Source: Treponema sp. (GTDB taxonomy: Bacteria > Spirochaetota > Spirochaetia > Treponematales > Breznakiellaceae). Taken from it: 38,376 bases of DNA. The notes beneath the pieces were generated by a model, which ran no database searches, was not told the origin of the DNA, and worked only from the letters and a program-made list of their open reading frames with translations. A program made the position numbers and the translations under genes. This document shows, piece after piece, positions 4,112-38,376 of the stretch (positions are counted from its first letter, which is position 1; each line of letters opens with the position of its first letter). The stretch is from contig WQUW01000011.1 of NCBI GenBank assembly GCA_009781915.1, forward strand, positions 1 to 38,376, read 5' to 3'.

Positions 4112-4122
4112 CCCCCAGCGAT

Positions 4123-4166
4123 GCCCCCGCCGTGCGTGAGCCAGCCGTACAATGCCCGGCGGGGGG
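4123..4166 (-). terminator. GC-rich hairpin downstream of polB; short relative of the large IR element
   Basis: gcccccgccg ... cggcgggggg stem; contains ccccgccgtgcgtgagc and acaatgcccggc, shared with the 22.1-kb element. Confidence 0.5.
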
Positions 4167-4170
4167 CGGC

Positions 4171-6744
4171 CTACAGCCCCAGTTCCATCTGACCATCCCT
4201 AAAGTAGCCCCGTCCCGGCGAGGGGAACAGTTCAGCGCCCCAGCCCGCCGCTGAAGCGATGGAACGGGCCGCCGGAAGCACTTGGGAATCGGCGTAGTGG
4301 TCGTAGTCCAAAGGCGCGTGGGAAAGAGGCTGGCGCTGTTCGTCTGCCGAGGGCTGGGGGCCGTTGATTGTCCAGACATACTCTACCGTGCCCCGCCTGT
4401 TTTTCCAGCCAAGGGCCCGCGCCGCTTTTACTTGGGGCGGCGTGGAAGCCGTGTAAGCTTCCGGGGCGCGGGAAAGGCGCTTGCGGTACACTAGCTCTCC
4501 GTCAAGTTTTCCCCGCCTCATGTCGTTAAGGATGGCGTACACTTCGCGCGCAAACTCCCCTTCGCCGCAGCCGGAGAAAACCAGTTCCAGAAGCTCCAGT
4601 TGAATGCGCCGCGCAAGGGGCGTATAATCGCTTCTGACTGCCTCCATGCCTTTAACTTCCACGGAAAGACCGCCCTCGCGGTTTAGCAGGTGGCCCCCGT
4701 AGCCCTTAGCCCTGCCCCGGCTTTCGTCCGAGTTTCTTAAAGGCGGAATCATGAAGCGCCTGTATGCTTTTTCAAACCGCATATCCAGAAAGGATTCCAC
4801 ATCGTACTCGTCCCTCGCCTGCCGCGCGATAACGGCGTTCAGTTCACGGGTACTGCTCTTTCCCCATTCAAAAAAATCATCGTAGGCGGCGCTGTCCCCA
4901 AGACCGGTCTGCACAAAAAGGGAATCGGTGTCGCCGTAAAGCACCCGGAACCCTTCGCGGGTAAACCAGTCGCGGGAAACGTGCAGCCACTTCCTGGCAA
5001 AAGACGTTATCGCCCCGGCTAACTGCGAGCGCCCGTAGCGGCACTTTGGCGTTCCCAGTACGCCGTAAAAACTGTTCATCAAAATCTTGTACACAAAACT
5101 GGCTTCCTCGTCCCCAGCGTCCAAGGCGCGGCGGCGGGCGGCGAAATATCTTTCAATCAGTTCCGGCAAGATTCCCCTTTCCCGTGAAAAGGCCGCCCCG
5201 TTAGGCGCTACGATTGCCCGTTCTCCACGGGCCCGCGCATGCGCCAAGGGATCGATGTTAAAACTCAGCATGATGCTGGGGTAAAGGCTGCGGAAATCAA
5301 AAACCGCCACGTTGGAAAAAAGCCCTGGCGAAGGTTCCAGCACCGTTCCCCCGGAAGCGCCGGACACCGGGCGGCTTGGGTCAAGGGGAACGGGGGCGAT
5401 GCCCCTGTAGCGCAGTTCCATCGCGTAGACGCGCTCAAAACTCACCACGCTCGTCCATGCCTTGTCCAGAGACACACCGGTAAGGCTTGCCCGTTCCACA
5501 GTCAGGTTGAAAAGGCCCGTCTTTTCAAGGATTTCCAGAACCAGCTCGGCGTCCCTCCCGCAATAGCGCCCAAAGCGGGCCGGGTCTTTGTGATACAGCT
5601 CCTTTAACTCGGCGATTTTGTTGCCGCCGCTTGAAGAAACAAGTTTGCCCTCGCCCAGTACGGATTTCGCTACCGCTTCCAGCGAAAACCCGTCCAGACT
5701 GCCGCCCTGCCAGCCCTTTGGGCCTGAGCGAAAAATCCGCAGTGCGTCCACTATCTGCCGGCCCGGAACAAGCGCCGCCGCAGACCGCCGCCTGCCGCTT
5801 TCGTCCCCGTCTTTCAAGGCGGGGAAAAATTTCGCCTCATCTTCGCAACGGCTCAGAGTGAAGGGAATGCGGTGAAAGGCGCAGCGTTCAGCAAGGCGGG
5901 GAAAATCAAAATCCAGAAAGTTCCAGCCGGTAATGACATCCGGGTCTAGCCTTCGTATATCCTGAAGGAAGGCGGCAAGAAGGGAAGCTTCGGCGGGATG
6001 AAAAAAGATTCCCTCATTGGGGGATCGGGCATCGGGGGCGGGGGAAGGAGCAAGCACCCGTACAACACTGCCTCCGACAGAACTGTCGCTAGCAACACTG
6101 TCGCTGACAGCGCTATCGCTGGCTTTGCCCCCGGCCTTGCCGCCATTCGCCTGCCAGACGCTTATGCCCGCCGCCAGAATGGTTCCGTTCTGCACATCGG
6201 TTTCAATATCGACCGAGGCGACTTTAAGCGAAACCCTGCTTTCACTGGCGGGGCATATCCGCGGGCGGGGAAAAACGAGGTCAACAAAGCGTCCGGGCCT
6301 TGTTTCGCCTTCAAGGTCTACGGGGCCCTTGATACGATTCATGATGAAGTACGCTTCCGGCGGCTTTATGTCACCATCGGGGCTGGCTATGCCGGCCTGT
6401 TCCAGCAGCCTTCCGGCGGCGCTGTAATCACGGTAGTGGGAGAACGTGAGCAAAAGCAGCGCTTCCCTGCCGTCGAATGCTTCAAGGGCGGCGGCGGTCA
6501 GGGGTTCGCTCGTTTCATACTTTAGCGAGGCGAGAACACGCTTTGCCCTGCCTTCTTCCCCGGCGGGGATGTGAAGGGACGGCCGCCATGCGGCATCGAC
6601 AGCGGCAAAGGAGCGTCCGTCTTCAAGGCGGCCTACGAGGTAGAGCCGGTCGCGGCGCGTGTCGGCGTAGCAGTGGACAACAAACCCACGGGCTTTCATT
6701 GTAATTGTATGGTACGCAAGCGGCGGGGTAAAGTCCACCCGCAT
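4171..6744 (-). CDS. polB: Family-B DNA polymerase (PolB / Pol II-like)
   Basis: DIET exonuclease motif, DFRSLYPSIM, KILMNSFYGVLG and YGDTDSLFV motifs; start may be the internal M at MKARGF. Confidence 0.88.
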   Translation of the reverse strand: MRVDFTPPLAYHTITMKARGFVVHCYADTRRDRLYLVGRLEDGRSFAAVDAAWRPSLHIPAGEEGRAKRVLASLKYETSEPLTAAALEAFDGREALLLLTFSHYRDYSAAGRLLEQAGIASPDGDIKPPEAYFIMNRIKGPVDLEGETRPGRFVDLVFPRPRICPASESRVSLKVASVDIETDVQNGTILAAGISVWQANGGKAGGKASDSAVSDSVASDSSVGGSVVRVLAPSPAPDARSPNEGIFFHPAEASLLAAFLQDIRRLDPDVITGWNFLDFDFPRLAERCAFHRIPFTLSRCEDEAKFFPALKDGDESGRRRSAAALVPGRQIVDALRIFRSGPKGWQGGSLDGFSLEAVAKSVLGEGKLVSSSGGNKIAELKELYHKDPARFGRYCGRDAELVLEILEKTGLFNLTVERASLTGVSLDKAWTSVVSFERVYAMELRYRGIAPVPLDPSRPVSGASGGTVLEPSPGLFSNVAVFDFRSLYPSIMLSFNIDPLAHARARGERAIVAPNGAAFSRERGILPELIERYFAARRRALDAGDEEASFVYKILMNSFYGVLGTPKCRYGRSQLAGAITSFARKWLHVSRDWFTREGFRVLYGDTDSLFVQTGLGDSAAYDDFFEWGKSSTRELNAVIARQARDEYDVESFLDMRFEKAYRRFMIPPLRNSDESRGRAKGYGGHLLNREGGLSVEVKGMEAVRSDYTPLARRIQLELLELVFSGCGEGEFAREVYAILNDMRRGKLDGELVYRKRLSRAPEAYTASTPPQVKAARALGWKNRRGTVEYVWTINGPQPSADEQRQPLSHAPLDYDHYADSQVLPAARSIASAAGWGAELFPSPGRGYFRDGQMELGL

Positions 6745-12503: not shown

Positions 12504-12517
12504 GAAGTTTGCCCCCT

Positions 12518-12558
12518 CCCCCACCGTGCATTGCCTTGATGCTGATGCACGGCGGGGG
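12518..12558. terminator. Strong 13-bp GC-rich hairpin after the ABC exporter gene
   Basis: ccccaccgtgcat ... atgcacggcgggg with one G-U pair; no clear T-run. Confidence 0.5.
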
Positions 12559-12569
12559 ATGAATGTTCC

Positions 12570-14843: not shown

Positions 14844-14891
<48 letters not shown>

Positions 14892-21523: not shown

Positions 21524-22099
21524 ATGAACAGAACTACAAAGCTTTTTGCGGGCGTATGCGCTCTGATTATTTTCGCCGCCGTAGCGGCCTACGGGCAGAT
21601 GGTTTCCGCTCCCGCCGCGAGGGAACAGGCCCTTGCCATGACTGGCGGGGGAACGGTGGACAGCATGGAACTTGTTTCCGGCCCGGACGGCCCTGTGTAC
21701 CGGTTCATAATCACAAACGCCGCCACCCGTTTCGAGGTGTCCGTGGATGCCAGCACCGGAAACGTAACCGGCCTTAGCTCCCTTGCGGCGCCCGCCCCCG
21801 GTGTTACGGCTGCCCCGCCGCCCGCCACGCCCGGCCCCGGTGTTATGGCTACCCCCACGCCCCGGCACGGCGGGACGGCGATGCCTCAAAATCCGCCGGT
21901 AAGCCGGGCCGCCGCCGTCGACATAGCGCGGGCTTACCTCGCTTCCCGTAACATCAGGGCGGATTTTAGAAGCGTGAAGATGGACTGGGAAAGGGGAAGA
22001 TGGGTGTGGGAGGTAGAGTTCAGGGACGGCAGGACGGAGATAGAGTTTTACATTGACGTACACTCAGGCGAGATCGTGAAGTTCGAGATTGAACGATAG
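21524..22099 (+). CDS. Secreted PepSY-like domain protein, tandem paralogue
   Basis: FIITNAATRFEVSVDASTGNV ... TEIEFYIDVHSGEIVKFEI; similar layout to the upstream gene. Confidence 0.7.
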   Translation: MNRTTKLFAGVCALIIFAAVAAYGQMVSAPAAREQALAMTGGGTVDSMELVSGPDGPVYRFIITNAATRFEVSVDASTGNVTGLSSLAAPAPGVTAAPPPATPGPGVMATPTPRHGGTAMPQNPPVSRAAAVDIARAYLASRNIRADFRSVKMDWERGRWVWEVEFRDGRTEIEFYIDVHSGEIVKFEIER

Positions 22100-22109
22100 C
22101 CGCCCCCGC

Positions 22110-22280
22110 CGCGCGTGAGCATTCCCGCACAATGCCCGGCAGGGGAGGATATACGTTTTAAGAATCCCGCATGGGGAACCCGCTCCGGAGCCACGGTCTC
22201 CTACGCGGAAACACCATGCAAATGGCTTCTTAAAACGTATATCCTCCCCTGCCGGGCATTGTGCCGATGGCTCACGCGCG
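22110..22280. repeat. Large structured inverted-repeat element, copy 1
   Basis: Perfect 37-bp arms 22128-22164 / 22227-22263, outer 11-bp arms 22110-22120 / 22270-22280, inner stem GCATGG/CCATGC. Confidence 0.9.
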
Positions 22281-22323
22281 ACGGGGCATTTCTGGGGGGC
22301 TCCGCAGAGCAGAACACCCGCGC

Positions 22324-22384: not shown

Positions 22385-24709
22385 CTAGGGCTTGATAATC
22401 CGAACCGGGCGGGTGCGGTTAGTCGTGGTGCCATCGCCAAGCATTCCGAAAGCGTTGTGCCCCCACGCCCACAGGTAGCCTTCGCTGTCAATTGCAAGGC
22501 TGAAACTGCCGCCCCCGATGGAAGTGTGCCATAGAGTGGTATCATCAAGGTCTTCATCCAATGATAGCGCCCTTGTTATCCTCACCGGGTAGTCACCTTG
22601 ACCTCCTGTATTATCAAGGCGTCCCAACTGCCCATAGACATTGCTACCCCAAGTGAAAAGAGCCCCAGTAATATGCTGTATGGCAACGCCGTGGCTGGTG
22701 TTGTTCAAATCGATGGAAGAGAACTCCATCGGAGCGGTCACCCTTCCCGGTATATAGGAAGTTCCCGTCCGGCCAAGTCGCCCGTTTCCACTATTCCCCC
22801 AGGTAAACAGGCCACGGTTCTCTGCGCCGCCTCCGTCCCTAATACCAGCAGACCACTGGTTTCCCGCGGATACGCTGCTCCACCGCCATGCTGGATTCCC
22901 TACCGGCACGGGCACATTCGATCCATCGCTGGAGACACCGTTGGTAAGCTGGAACTGGGTGTTGTTGCCCCAGCCGTACAGCCTGCCGTCGGTTCTTAAA
23001 GCCAGGGCGTGATGCCAGCCTGCGGCAACGGAACCCCAGTCGTTTCCGGGCAGCCGCCGCAATTCAGTCACATGATCCCCTCTTTCGCCGCCAAGTCCCA
23101 CCACATTGTAGTTGTTGCTTCCCATGGAATACAGGAATCTGCTGCTACCTTCTTGCCGAATGGCAAAGATGGTTGCGTGAGCCGCATGGATGGCTACCCA
23201 GCCGTTACGAGGATCCAACTGCCTCATCCGTCCATCCGAACCCGATCCGCCCAGGTTATCCGTCAAGCCAGTGCTTACATCCACAACCATGTTGGTAAGG
23301 TTACCGAAGCCAGTGTAGAATATTCTGCCAGTTCCCCAGATGGTTCCGTCCGACCTAAGCGCCACGGTGTGAGCCCACCCGCCGGACACGTATGTCCAGT
23401 AGTGGCCCGCAGGTAAGGGTGGATGCGCCACGCGCGTTGGTAGGTTCCTGTCGTAGGCGGCGGGGCGGTTATCTCCGGTAGGGTTGGGAAGAGAGGTTCG
23501 ACTGTCGTGACCGAGTTGGCCGTGCTCGCCCCTGCCCCACGTGTACAGCTCGCCGCCGGAATTATCCGCCCTGTTCCTCCACGTTATCGCCATGGTGTGG
23601 TCTATGCCCACACGCACCATGGCCCAGTCGCCATGCTGCATATCACCTGTAGCCCTGACGTTAAAGGTAGCAGAGAGGTCTCCGCCGCCTAAAGTGTGGA
23701 CATCGCTTGCGGCAACAGTTGCCCGCACCGTGATGAACTCCTCATCTTCAGGGTGAATTCCGTGCACAATAAGGCCGTTATCAGCGTCTATCCGTGTTCC
23801 AACGAAATTCCCCCCCGTAATTTCCCAGCTTACAATACCCTGCGGGGCATCATTCGCCGGGCTTTCAACACGAGCGTACAATTCATGCCTGCTTGCCCTT
23901 GGCACATTAACAAAGGTGGTTATGGCTGCGCCAGCGGCATCGGTTATCACTACCCCGGTTGCGGTCGGCGGGATGGTTACGGTGGTTCTTGCTGGCCCCG
24001 CAACGCCGTAATCCGGTGTTGCTACTACGGTAATTGTTCTTTCCGCTTCGTTAGAAAGTACGGTCAGAACACCGAAGGGGTTGATTATGCTCCCCGTCGT
24101 AGTCATGTGGGGGTTAGCAAGCGTGCCCTCTTCCAGCGTCCAAGTAAGATCGCCAATGTTGGGGTGGTTCGCGCCACTTATCGAAAAGTCCGGTGAATCC
24201 TGAAAGTTAAAGTACTCTCCCCTGCGGACAGTCTCCGCCAAGGGCATATTCAACACGTTCACCTCGGCCTCGCCGCGGACAGCGCGGATAATCACCGGCG
24301 TGGAAGGAACATCGTATTCCCGCAGCCGCGCGGTAATCTGAACATAGCCATCCGCATACTGCGCAAACGTCAGGATTGCCTCATTGCCGCCGTTTTCCTC
24401 GGTGAAGTGAGCAGCCTCTTCAAAAGTAGTAATAGGAGGGGGGGGGAAAAAGGGCCTGTTGGGGGGGGGGGCAGGCTCCACGACCCATTCAATACCCTGC
24501 CCCATCTGGCCAACTCCGGTAAGCTCAACGCTGAACGTGTGGGAGGGGGTATGGCCTTCTCCTGTTCTGATTACGTTCCCTGGAGGTATTTCGGTGATTG
24601 TTATAACAGCTACGTGCGGCCCGACTAGCGGCCTGCCGCATCCGGCAAAAAACACAATGCCAAGGGCCAATAACAGCGCCGCAGGCATCATCCATAGGTT
24701 GTTTCTCAT
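22385..24709 (-). CDS. Lipoprotein with RCC1-like repeats
   Basis: Start MRNNLWMMPAALLLALGIVFFAGC at 24709; repeats ELYTWGRGEHGQLGHD, RLYGWGNNTQFQL, ALFTWGSNVYGQLG, YLWAWGHNAFGMLGDGT. The longer ORF start at 25228 is antisense to the GNAT gene. Confidence 0.82.
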   Translation of the reverse strand: MRNNLWMMPAALLLALGIVFFAGCGRPLVGPHVAVITITEIPPGNVIRTGEGHTPSHTFSVELTGVGQMGQGIEWVVEPAPPPNRPFFPPPPITTFEEAAHFTEENGGNEAILTFAQYADGYVQITARLREYDVPSTPVIIRAVRGEAEVNVLNMPLAETVRRGEYFNFQDSPDFSISGANHPNIGDLTWTLEEGTLANPHMTTTGSIINPFGVLTVLSNEAERTITVVATPDYGVAGPARTTVTIPPTATGVVITDAAGAAITTFVNVPRASRHELYARVESPANDAPQGIVSWEITGGNFVGTRIDADNGLIVHGIHPEDEEFITVRATVAASDVHTLGGGDLSATFNVRATGDMQHGDWAMVRVGIDHTMAITWRNRADNSGGELYTWGRGEHGQLGHDSRTSLPNPTGDNRPAAYDRNLPTRVAHPPLPAGHYWTYVSGGWAHTVALRSDGTIWGTGRIFYTGFGNLTNMVVDVSTGLTDNLGGSGSDGRMRQLDPRNGWVAIHAAHATIFAIRQEGSSRFLYSMGSNNYNVVGLGGERGDHVTELRRLPGNDWGSVAAGWHHALALRTDGRLYGWGNNTQFQLTNGVSSDGSNVPVPVGNPAWRWSSVSAGNQWSAGIRDGGGAENRGLFTWGNSGNGRLGRTGTSYIPGRVTAPMEFSSIDLNNTSHGVAIQHITGALFTWGSNVYGQLGRLDNTGGQGDYPVRITRALSLDEDLDDTTLWHTSIGGGSFSLAIDSEGYLWAWGHNAFGMLGDGTTTNRTRPVRIIKP
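24438..24471 (+). repeat. Two poly-G tracts (G9 at 24438-24446, G11 at 24461-24471) inside the RCC1-like gene
   Basis: Read directly; encode proline runs on the minus strand. Confidence 0.9.
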
Positions 24710-24932
24710 AGTGTTCTCCTTAATTATGACATACTTGTTGTTCAATAAGAGTGTATGTTGCCCAACGAGCAACATTATAACCAAAAGATAGTGCAAAAAA
24801 TACGTATTGTCAACAGTTTTTTGACACTTTCTTCTTGACACCAGCGCTGCCGTATGCGAAAATACGGACGGAGCTAACCGTACATTAACGGCAGAAACCC
24901 GCGAAAACTTTATACCAGGAGGGGTAGCACAC

Positions 24933-25445
24933 ATGGCGCGCATCACATTTCGCTCTGCGGGCCCCGGCGACATTCCGCTGATACTGCGGTTTATCCGGGA
25001 CCTTGCCAGATACGAAAAACTGGAACACGAGGTTGTTGCCACAGAAGAACTGCTTTGCCAGTGGCTGTTTGAAAAAAACGCCGCGGAGGTGATTTTTGCC
25101 GTGGTTGACGGCACGGAGGCCGGCTTTGCGTTGTTTTTTTCCACGTACTCTACCTTCCTTGGGCGCGCGGGTATGTTTCTGGAGGATTTGTTTGTCTCGC
25201 CCGAATACCGCAGAACCGGCATCGGCAAGGCGCTGTTCTGTGAGCTTGCGCGGCTGTCCGTAGAGCGGGGCTACGGCCGCTTGGAGTGGCGCTGCCTTGA
25301 CTGGAACACCCCAAGTATCGACTTCTACCTGTCGCTTGGCGCGAAGCCAAAGAGCGAGTGGACAGAATACCGCATAGCCGGCGGCGCGTTGAGTAAACTG
25401 GCCGGGATGGCAAGAGAAAACGCAACAAACTCGAAATCTTCATAA
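24933..25445 (+). CDS. GNAT-family N-acetyltransferase
   Basis: MARITFRSAGPGDIPLILRFIRDLARYEKL...EDLFVSPEYRRTGIGKALF...WNTPSIDFYLSLGA. Confidence 0.88.
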   Translation: MARITFRSAGPGDIPLILRFIRDLARYEKLEHEVVATEELLCQWLFEKNAAEVIFAVVDGTEAGFALFFSTYSTFLGRAGMFLEDLFVSPEYRRTGIGKALFCELARLSVERGYGRLEWRCLDWNTPSIDFYLSLGAKPKSEWTEYRIAGGALSKLAGMARENATNSKSS

Positions 25446-36933: not shown

Positions 36934-37514
36934 TTCGGTTCTCCCAGAATGGCGGCGTATAGCCCCTTGTATTCGGTATATCCTTCTTCGGTATTGAAAG
37001 CCATTCTCCGCTCCATTAGAAGAAGTTTAAGTAAGTAAGCGTAAATGGCGCTTTCGCTGAAGCTGTCAAGGCCCTGAAAGCCCTCTATGGCGTCCCATCT
37101 GGCTTTGTCCAGATAGAGTTCGGCCTCCAACGGCGATTCAAAGGCGAGGGCGGCCCTCGCGGCGACGGCGGCGTCATAGGGATAGTCCGGAACTTCCGCC
37201 TGAAAGCCCCCTTCCCGCTTGAGCTTTTTCGCCCGGTTTTTGGCGAGGTTAAGGCGCAGCGTCCTTTCCCACTCCTTCCACTTGCTAACCACGCTGGAAG
37301 AAGCGGGAGCGGCGGGGCAGGTTTCGCCGGGTTCATCGGGCAGGGCCGACTGCGCCGGGCATATGTCCAGCGTACAGTGATCCAGCACGGCGGCGGCGGA
37401 AGAATCCATGTGTTCCCCGGCGAGCTTTTTAAAAGCACCGGAACTCATTGGAACATTCTGCCCGTAAATCAGATAGGGAAGCTGCGCCGCAAGATAATAG
37501 TAGGAACCCACCAT
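36930..37514 (-). CDS. DUF2764-family-like protein of the V-ATPase operon
   Basis: Position between subunits E and A; MVGSYYYLAAQLPYLIYGQ start; 4-bp overlap with ntpA. Confidence 0.7.
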   Translation of the reverse strand: MVGSYYYLAAQLPYLIYGQNVPMSSGAFKKLAGEHMDSSAAAVLDHCTLDICPAQSALPDEPGETCPAAPASSSVVSKWKEWERTLRLNLAKNRAKKLKREGGFQAEVPDYPYDAAVAARAALAFESPLEAELYLDKARWDAIEGFQGLDSFSESAIYAYLLKLLLMERRMAFNTEEGYTEYKGLYAAILGEPK

Positions 37515-38131
37515 TAATTTCCTTTATCCGTATGTTGTAATATCCCGGCAAGGCGGGGGTTAAGGTATGTCGAAAGAAGCTGCGCTACGGACTCAGCGGA
37601 AAAGTCGTAGTACGCCGATCCGTCCTTGTCGGAAATCCGGAACCCGGCCCCAAGATTGCGGACGGGTTTGAGTTCCACGCCCTTTTTAAGTTCAGCGGCC
37701 AGCTTGCCATCGAACCATGACTGGAGTTTTTGAAGGTCGCCTTCCGGCAGAAGCACATCCAAGGTGTCGCTTCCGGCTTTTGAGGCCCAGATTTTCAGGA
37801 TTTCCGGCAGGGCGGCCTTAAGCGTGTCTTCCCCGTAGGCGGCGGTGGCGGCTTGAGCTACGATCTTATCCAGAAGGGCCTGAATCTCGCCCTTGAAGGC
37901 CAGAATAAGGTTGCGGGAAGCCTGTTCCAGCGCGGCGATCCCGGCCTTTTCGGAGCGATCGGCGTCGGCCTTGCCCCGGCTTACAATACCGGCCGCTTCT
38001 TTCTGGGCGGCGGCTACAATCCGGGCGGCTTCGGCTTCGGCTTCGGCCTTTAGCTTAGCGGCTTCGGCGGAGGCGGATTCAATTCCGTCCTTTTTTATTT
38101 TGTCGAGTAGTTCTTGCAACTGGATTTCCAT
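37514..38131 (-). CDS. ntpE: V-type ATP synthase subunit E
   Basis: Ala/Glu/Lys-rich coiled coil followed by a subunit-E-like C-terminal domain; first gene of the operon. Confidence 0.85.
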   Translation of the reverse strand: MEIQLQELLDKIKKDGIESASAEAAKLKAEAEAEAARIVAAAQKEAAGIVSRGKADADRSEKAGIAALEQASRNLILAFKGEIQALLDKIVAQAATAAYGEDTLKAALPEILKIWASKAGSDTLDVLLPEGDLQKLQSWFDGKLAAELKKGVELKPVRNLGAGFRISDKDGSAYYDFSAESVAQLLSTYLNPRLAGILQHTDKGN

Positions 38132-38220: not shown

Positions 38221-38376
38221 CCCCCGCCGTGCGTGAGCGTGAGCATTTCCGCGTAAAGCTCCGGCAGGGGAGGATATACGGTTTAAGAATCCCGCCCAAG
38301 GAACACGGCTACGGAGCCTCGGTCTCCTTCGCCTAAGAATTTGGGCAAATGGCTTCTTAAACCGTATATCCTCCCC
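38221..38376. repeat. Large structured inverted-repeat element, copy 2, truncated by window end
   Basis: 23-bp perfect arms 38267-38289 / 38354-38376; inner stem GCCCAA/TTGGGC; same core as the 22.1-kb copy. Confidence 0.9.

Follow-up and report, generated by a model that had tools for sequence, protein, structure and literature searches.

The Treponema window analysed here, a stretch of 38,376 nucleotides that constitutes contig C11 of the assembly G000 (2.82 Mb, 180 contigs), carries a large inverted repeat between two genes and a second copy at its end. It raises the question of whether such a structure is a conserved RNA, a MITE-like element or a repeat of the REP/BIME type, the options entertained by an earlier note on this DNA. 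The structure is a member of a hitherto undescribed repeat family in which the folded shape persists as the stem sequences diverge. We favour, with a probability of about 0.55, a non-autonomous dispersed palindromic mobile element of termite-gut spirochaetes, similar to MITEs, REPs and foldback elements in behaviour and forming the outer ends of inserted cassettes in this genome. The features on which the analysis bears are listed in Table 1.

Table 1. Copies and relics of the hairpin element in the window, and the genes next to them
Feature	Position	Strand	Evidence
Element copy 1, full length	22098-22298	+	nhmmer 213 bits
Left arm of copy 1, 38 bp	22127-22164	+	
Right arm of copy 1, 38 bp	22227-22264	+	
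Conserved apex of copy 1, GCGTAGGAGACCGTGGCTCCGGAGC on the minus (sense) strand	22182-22206	-	R2 match 22158-22232 (-), 62.6 bits
Element copy 2, cut by the contig end	38219-38376	+	nhmmer 139 bits; R2 match 38283-38359 (-), 66.9 bits
Short relic, outer-stem sequences only	4113-4165	-	22 bits, E 8e-5
Probable short relic, weak match	12515-12562	-	13.7 bits, E 0.035
PepSY gene, host side; stop codon adjoins the 5' end of copy 1	21524-22099	+	Pfam PepSY
RCC1-repeat protein, 15-gene family (cluster 9)	22385-25228	-	Pfam RCC1
Host-side gene beside copy 2, weak V-ATPase subunit E match	37514-38131	-	

The arms of copy 1 are perfect, as the earlier note described them, and measure 38 bp instead of the 37 bp given there; the 62-nt insert between 22164 and 22227 was described correctly. 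The longest perfect arm in shuffled versions of the window (n=50) is 16 bp. The outer stem pairs GCGCGTGAGC (22111) with GCTCACGCGC (22270), and RNA folding of the whole copy returns -141.2 kcal/mol (z = -14). The place assigned to it, 22101-22285, was right, and its best extent as a family member is slightly wider. Copy 2 is present at 38.2 kb as claimed and is incomplete, since the contig stops at 38376 within the second arm and leaves only 23 bp of arms. Both paired changes reported between the two copies, acgTttt/aaaAcgt to acgGttt/aaaCcgt and GCATGG/CCATGC to GCCCAA/TTGGGC, are found. Elsewhere in the window, a perfect (GA)21 microsatellite lies between genes (14848-14890), and a family B DNA polymerase gene occupies the minus strand (4171-6744).

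Iterated nhmmer over the genome reports 290 non-redundant matches (246 with E<1e-3; 220 above 55 bits), including 129-137 near-full-length copies; 61 matches touch a contig edge, and dozens are short relics composed of the outer stem only. The scan for further copies, which had been proposed as a check, thus replaces the two copies first counted with more than 200. Full copies share a median identity of 94% with their nearest neighbour (maximum 98%), and no recent burst is therefore visible. Subfamilies within the genome swap entire arms or the outer stem with pairing kept, and truncated copies retain their 5' end more often than their 3' end. At five unrelated loci (C137:2958, C37:518, C82:12840, C84:13021 and C115:8452), a half copy ending in the apex (GGTCTC) stands directly before a full copy, and 18-nt partial copies precede full ones at several other loci of G000. 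A template-jump reading of the half-plus-full arrangement was dropped, because the pattern can be accounted for equally well by an insertion into the apex and a subsequent collapse. IS-like ends (tgaacttcccccgattgagtggacac... and tggagttcccccgattttttggacag...) are inserted within element copies at C60:17494, C53:122, C124:123 and C90:12216 of the same assembly. Contigs of the metagenome Ga0123355, which includes the window as contig 10001044, are filled with the same repeat; we infer a termite-gut habitat for the source from the label Emb289P3 that Ga0123356 carries in public records.

The earlier note had argued from covarying pairs that the folded structure is maintained, and this holds both in 137 copies of the genome and in 61 distinct matches from this genome and about 20 related ones. 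Across the former, 57 two-sided Watson-Crick changes occur in a 29-bp arm core; when the right arms are shuffled, 4.3 remain. Two models were used, R1 derived from a 12-copy core alignment and R2, a covariance model, from an alignment of the shared apex. The R2 alignments, which hold the 61 matches, display both-sided changes at 18/23 and 17/23 pairs and a pairing of 86% and 80%, versus 28-55% in slid controls. Covariation and pairing above controls together indicate that the fold is conserved, its arms being free to drift together. The arms are unrelated between genomes and still paired, and conservation throughout the family is seen in the asymmetric, bulged apex, which reads GGAGGAGACC...GGCUCCGUAG on the window's minus strand. 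The element is about 200 nt long here and 120-270 nt overall, and its foot, CCCCCCGCCGCGCG in the source genome, is a different one in other genomes.

Searches with R1 identify the element, with completely different arms, in a further 17 genomes of this family, and R2 extends this to 52 of 203 same-family genomes and 17 of 59 genera. Many R2-positive relatives hold at least 23 copies, among them the complete genome G175, which we take to be T. primitia ZAS-2. In 301 order-level and 251 phylum-level genomes (some family members included; ~450 further spirochaete genomes), no other family yields an R2 match. When 85,666 species genomes were scanned for the exact motif, 25 stretches came up. Spirochaetes account for 19, most of which bear the label Treponema or Spirochaetia and derive from termite samples; the remaining six agree in little more than the short pattern and look like chance hits. 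Nothing convincing emerged from phage, plasmid and viral collections. Rfam, a match to which would have spoken against a new family according to the earlier note, reports no gathering-threshold hit in the window and nothing credible at the element, and the hairpins of relatives return only below-threshold matches to microRNA models. A literature search found no description of this repeat. Termite-gut spirochetes have been placed in the Breznakiellaceae (PMC13067680).

Whether pairing is maintained in RNA or in DNA can be judged from the mismatches, as selection on RNA pairing should let G.U be tolerated above A.C on the functional strand. The long arms of relatives contain 27 G.T and 24 A.C among 3,429 Watson-Crick pairs, each below 1%, and given this lack of a G.U preference, arm pairing looks, from the sequence comparison, to be maintained mainly at the DNA level. 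In the source genome, minus-strand mismatches lean to G.U (93 versus 56 A.C); an early reading of this asymmetry as minus-strand RNA selection was rejected, for it is not reproduced in the relatives. With respect to the gene upstream, elements are oriented at random, 57 in the same direction and 59 in the opposite one. A conserved structured RNA, with transcribed copies whose hairpin would serve as a 3'-UTR stabiliser, a terminator or a small RNA and which would have spread by duplication, could draw on the very stable fold, the bulged asymmetric apex, the minus-strand lean and the strong covariation of helices across homologues, although DNA-level pairing gives that last signal as well. The balanced mismatches in relatives, the random orientation and the lack of an Rfam match went against this option of the earlier note, and we consider it unlikely. 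The asymmetric apex itself could act as single-stranded DNA or RNA.

The copies occupy polarised positions. Gene calls were home-made, and both they and the family clusters are approximate. In most of 68 cases, no more than about 20 nt separate the 5' end from the stop codon of the preceding gene on the same strand, and the element's own TGA sometimes serves as that stop. The remaining 5' ends mostly stand immediately upstream of the -35 region of an opposing gene. Families of at least five members supply 62% of 3' neighbours, compared with 16% of 5' neighbours and 19% of genes genome-wide (p=2e-17), and elements nearest contig ends point their 3' side outward in 135/157. The adjacency counts are inflated by paralogous gene-plus-element duplications, and short-read contigs are also broken by multi-copy genes. 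The 3'-side families comprise BspA-like LRR, RCC1, FGE-type and lipoprotein genes and Rpn nucleases. In G000, the FGE-type family counts 15 members, several beside the hairpin element, and one diversity-generating retroelement (DGR; C132:243-2865, L127) combines an accessory protein and a DGR-type reverse transcriptase (RT) with an FGE-type target gene that ends GFRVARP.

Nine inverted pairs of elements, 1.3-3.5 kb apart with their 5' ends outward, each enclose a cassette. Five are complete (C10, C54, C17, C32, C12), and the other four (C60, C75, C101, C25) are cut by a contig edge or involve a partial copy; the cargo is one gene of a multi-copy family in 8/9 pairs, C101 holding two gene calls, and a tenth inverted pair (C86) contains no called gene. 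Rpn-type PD-(D/E)XK nuclease genes (PF12784, TIGR01784) also occur between two directly repeated elements (C15:30865-31722, C137, C70, C140 and C3 of G000), starting ~40-50 bp after one element and ending with a stop codon at the start of the next. Among relatives, some element pairs enclose a lipoprotein or Rpn gene (G186, G189, G193, G206; L160, L163, L178, L179, L180). Many copies in these genomes stand alone between housekeeping genes and flank no cassette. Within the window, the 5' end of copy 1 lies directly at or after the TAG of the PepSY gene, and its 3' side points to the RCC1 gene, the 3' end of which faces the element like that of other cassette-type genes. Upstream of this gene, the window holds no second element, and the cassette arrangement is thus observed on one side only. 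The 5' end of copy 2 lies upstream of the promoter region of a minus-strand operon starting at 38131. The flanks of single copies and of cassettes exhibit no consistent target-site duplication, C/G-run ends blurring the boundaries, and the two same-genus genomes compared yielded no empty site, their identity being too low to provide an informative pair.

MITEs and foldback elements such as ERIC, Correia, RUP and Nezha are short non-autonomous inverted-repeat elements of intergenic space, and the element shares with them terminal inverted repeats, many dispersed copies and the lack of coding capacity. Were it an ordinary MITE or the end of a composite transposon, a DDE transposase would act on its arms as terminal inverted repeats, and single genes would be moved between pairs of copies, as the sharp 5' ends and the pairs with 5' ends outward around such genes suggest. 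However, arms and ends differ completely between genomes around a conserved structured centre, the opposite of what is expected of transposase-bound ends; the bracketing of cassettes sets the element further apart, no consistent target-site duplication was seen at its blurred boundaries, and the IS-like ends are inserted into copies and do not share the ends of these copies. This explanation is quite improbable. REP/BIME sequences and REPINs, 20-40 bp long with a GTAG or CGTC foot, tend to have RAYT (TnpA_REP) genes (PMC3733652, PMC3116915, PMC8266576). Like the element, they are high-copy, intergenic and palindromic, often lie near gene ends and are proposed to move as folded DNA; unlike them, the element is longer, conserves its apex and is devoid of a GTAG/CGTC foot. 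A Y1 transposase recognising the hairpin would suit the dispersed intergenic palindromes and the Y1/RAYT-like genes of many relatives, but the source genome, with its more than 200 copies, returns no PF01797 match, Y1 presence is not associated with the element (29/52 positive versus 88/151 negative genomes, p=0.75), and 0/8 Y1/RAYT-like loci of relatives have an element nearby within the stretch fetched. RAYT/Y1 was therefore rejected as the mobiliser, and a classical REP/RAYT system, given that the source genome has no Y1 transposase, is highly improbable.

No linked or strictly co-occurring mobilising gene was identified in the source genome and its relatives, and the copies of relatives have no neighbour gene in common. 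In the attC sites of integrons, the conserved part is the foot. These sites resemble the element in that structure is conserved over sequence, that hairpins stand by stop codons and that cassettes hold single genes. On an integron-like view, the folded hairpins would be attC-like sites on which a tyrosine recombinase acts. A recombinase distantly similar to integron integrases is indeed commoner in element-positive genomes (35/52 versus 67/151, p=0.006), a modest enrichment in a test that ignores phylogeny, and we retain it only as a lead. True integron integrases (TIGR02249 above cut-off), however, occur in 5/203 genomes, none element-positive, and were discarded as mobilisers; the element conserves its apex and not its foot, its cassettes are dispersed and not arrayed, and no integron has been reported in T. 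primitia or T. azotonutricium (PMC3607928). An integron-like origin is accordingly very unlikely. Tyrosine recombinases of ~400 aa, distantly like integron integrases and carrying an insert that falls between positions 181 and 230 of the profile, are found family-wide (e.g. G203:C3 and G187:C49) and in truncated form in C72 of G000. The msDNA-like repeats of Nannocystis, for which retrotransposition has been proposed, are likewise dispersed hairpins without an adjacent enzyme, but the source genome has no retron RT. Copying of an RNA form of the element by an RT would agree with the partial 5' copies joined to full ones and with the preferential retention of 5' ends, yet the sole RT of the source genome is of the diversity-generating type, RT presence is not associated with the element (20/52 versus 50/151, p=0.50), and G175 has no RT listed. 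The RT was dismissed as a mobiliser, and retrotransposition is barely credible. Neither RT, RAYT nor integron integrase accounts for the element. The Rpn nuclease (PDDEXK_2) is strikingly adjacent in the source genome and modestly enriched in element-positive genomes (43/52 versus 91/151, p=0.004, again ignoring phylogeny), yet only 2/20 Rpn loci in relatives have the element nearby; it was rejected as a mobiliser and is treated as cargo on that account.

The MITE/REP-like option of the earlier note fits best, and the element is best read as a new non-autonomous palindromic mobile element. Its copy number, family-restricted distribution, covariation, conserved apex, polarity and cassette arrangement are observed, and its mobility is inferred. 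Under this mobile-element reading, a single strand would fold into a long stem topped by the conserved asymmetric apex, and the stem sequence could change freely provided that the arms stay complementary. Because the stem is free to change in this way, a trans-acting recombinase or transposase would most likely recognise the folded apex and not fixed terminal sequences. The element would form the outer ends of inserted cassettes, its 5' ends pointing outward against host stop codons or promoters and its 3' sides facing one multi-copy gene for a surface protein, a lipoprotein or an Rpn nuclease. Points against this reading are that the searches revealed no target-site duplication, empty site or mobilising gene, the solitary copies of many relatives, the absence of a visible recent burst and the minus-strand G.U lean, which would be expected of an RNA as well. 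We suggest only tentatively, as a rather doubtful possibility, that a previously unknown cassette-mobilisation system is at work in termite-gut spirochaetes, where apex-recognised folded hairpins would bracket single surface-protein, lipoprotein or nuclease genes and allow their insertion at gene edges without integrons, RAYTs or retroelements.

With its apex fixed and its arms free, the repeat family would stand for a kind of recognition that is new among mobile elements. It provides a natural covariation experiment, and its covariance model is a direct marker for finding the missing recombinase. The termite-gut spirochaetes of the Breznakiellaceae are dominant symbionts, and little is understood of their surface-protein repertoire. 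Should the cassette reading be right, it would explain how lipoprotein and surface-protein gene families have spread in these bacteria, as well as why their assemblies break at the points observed.
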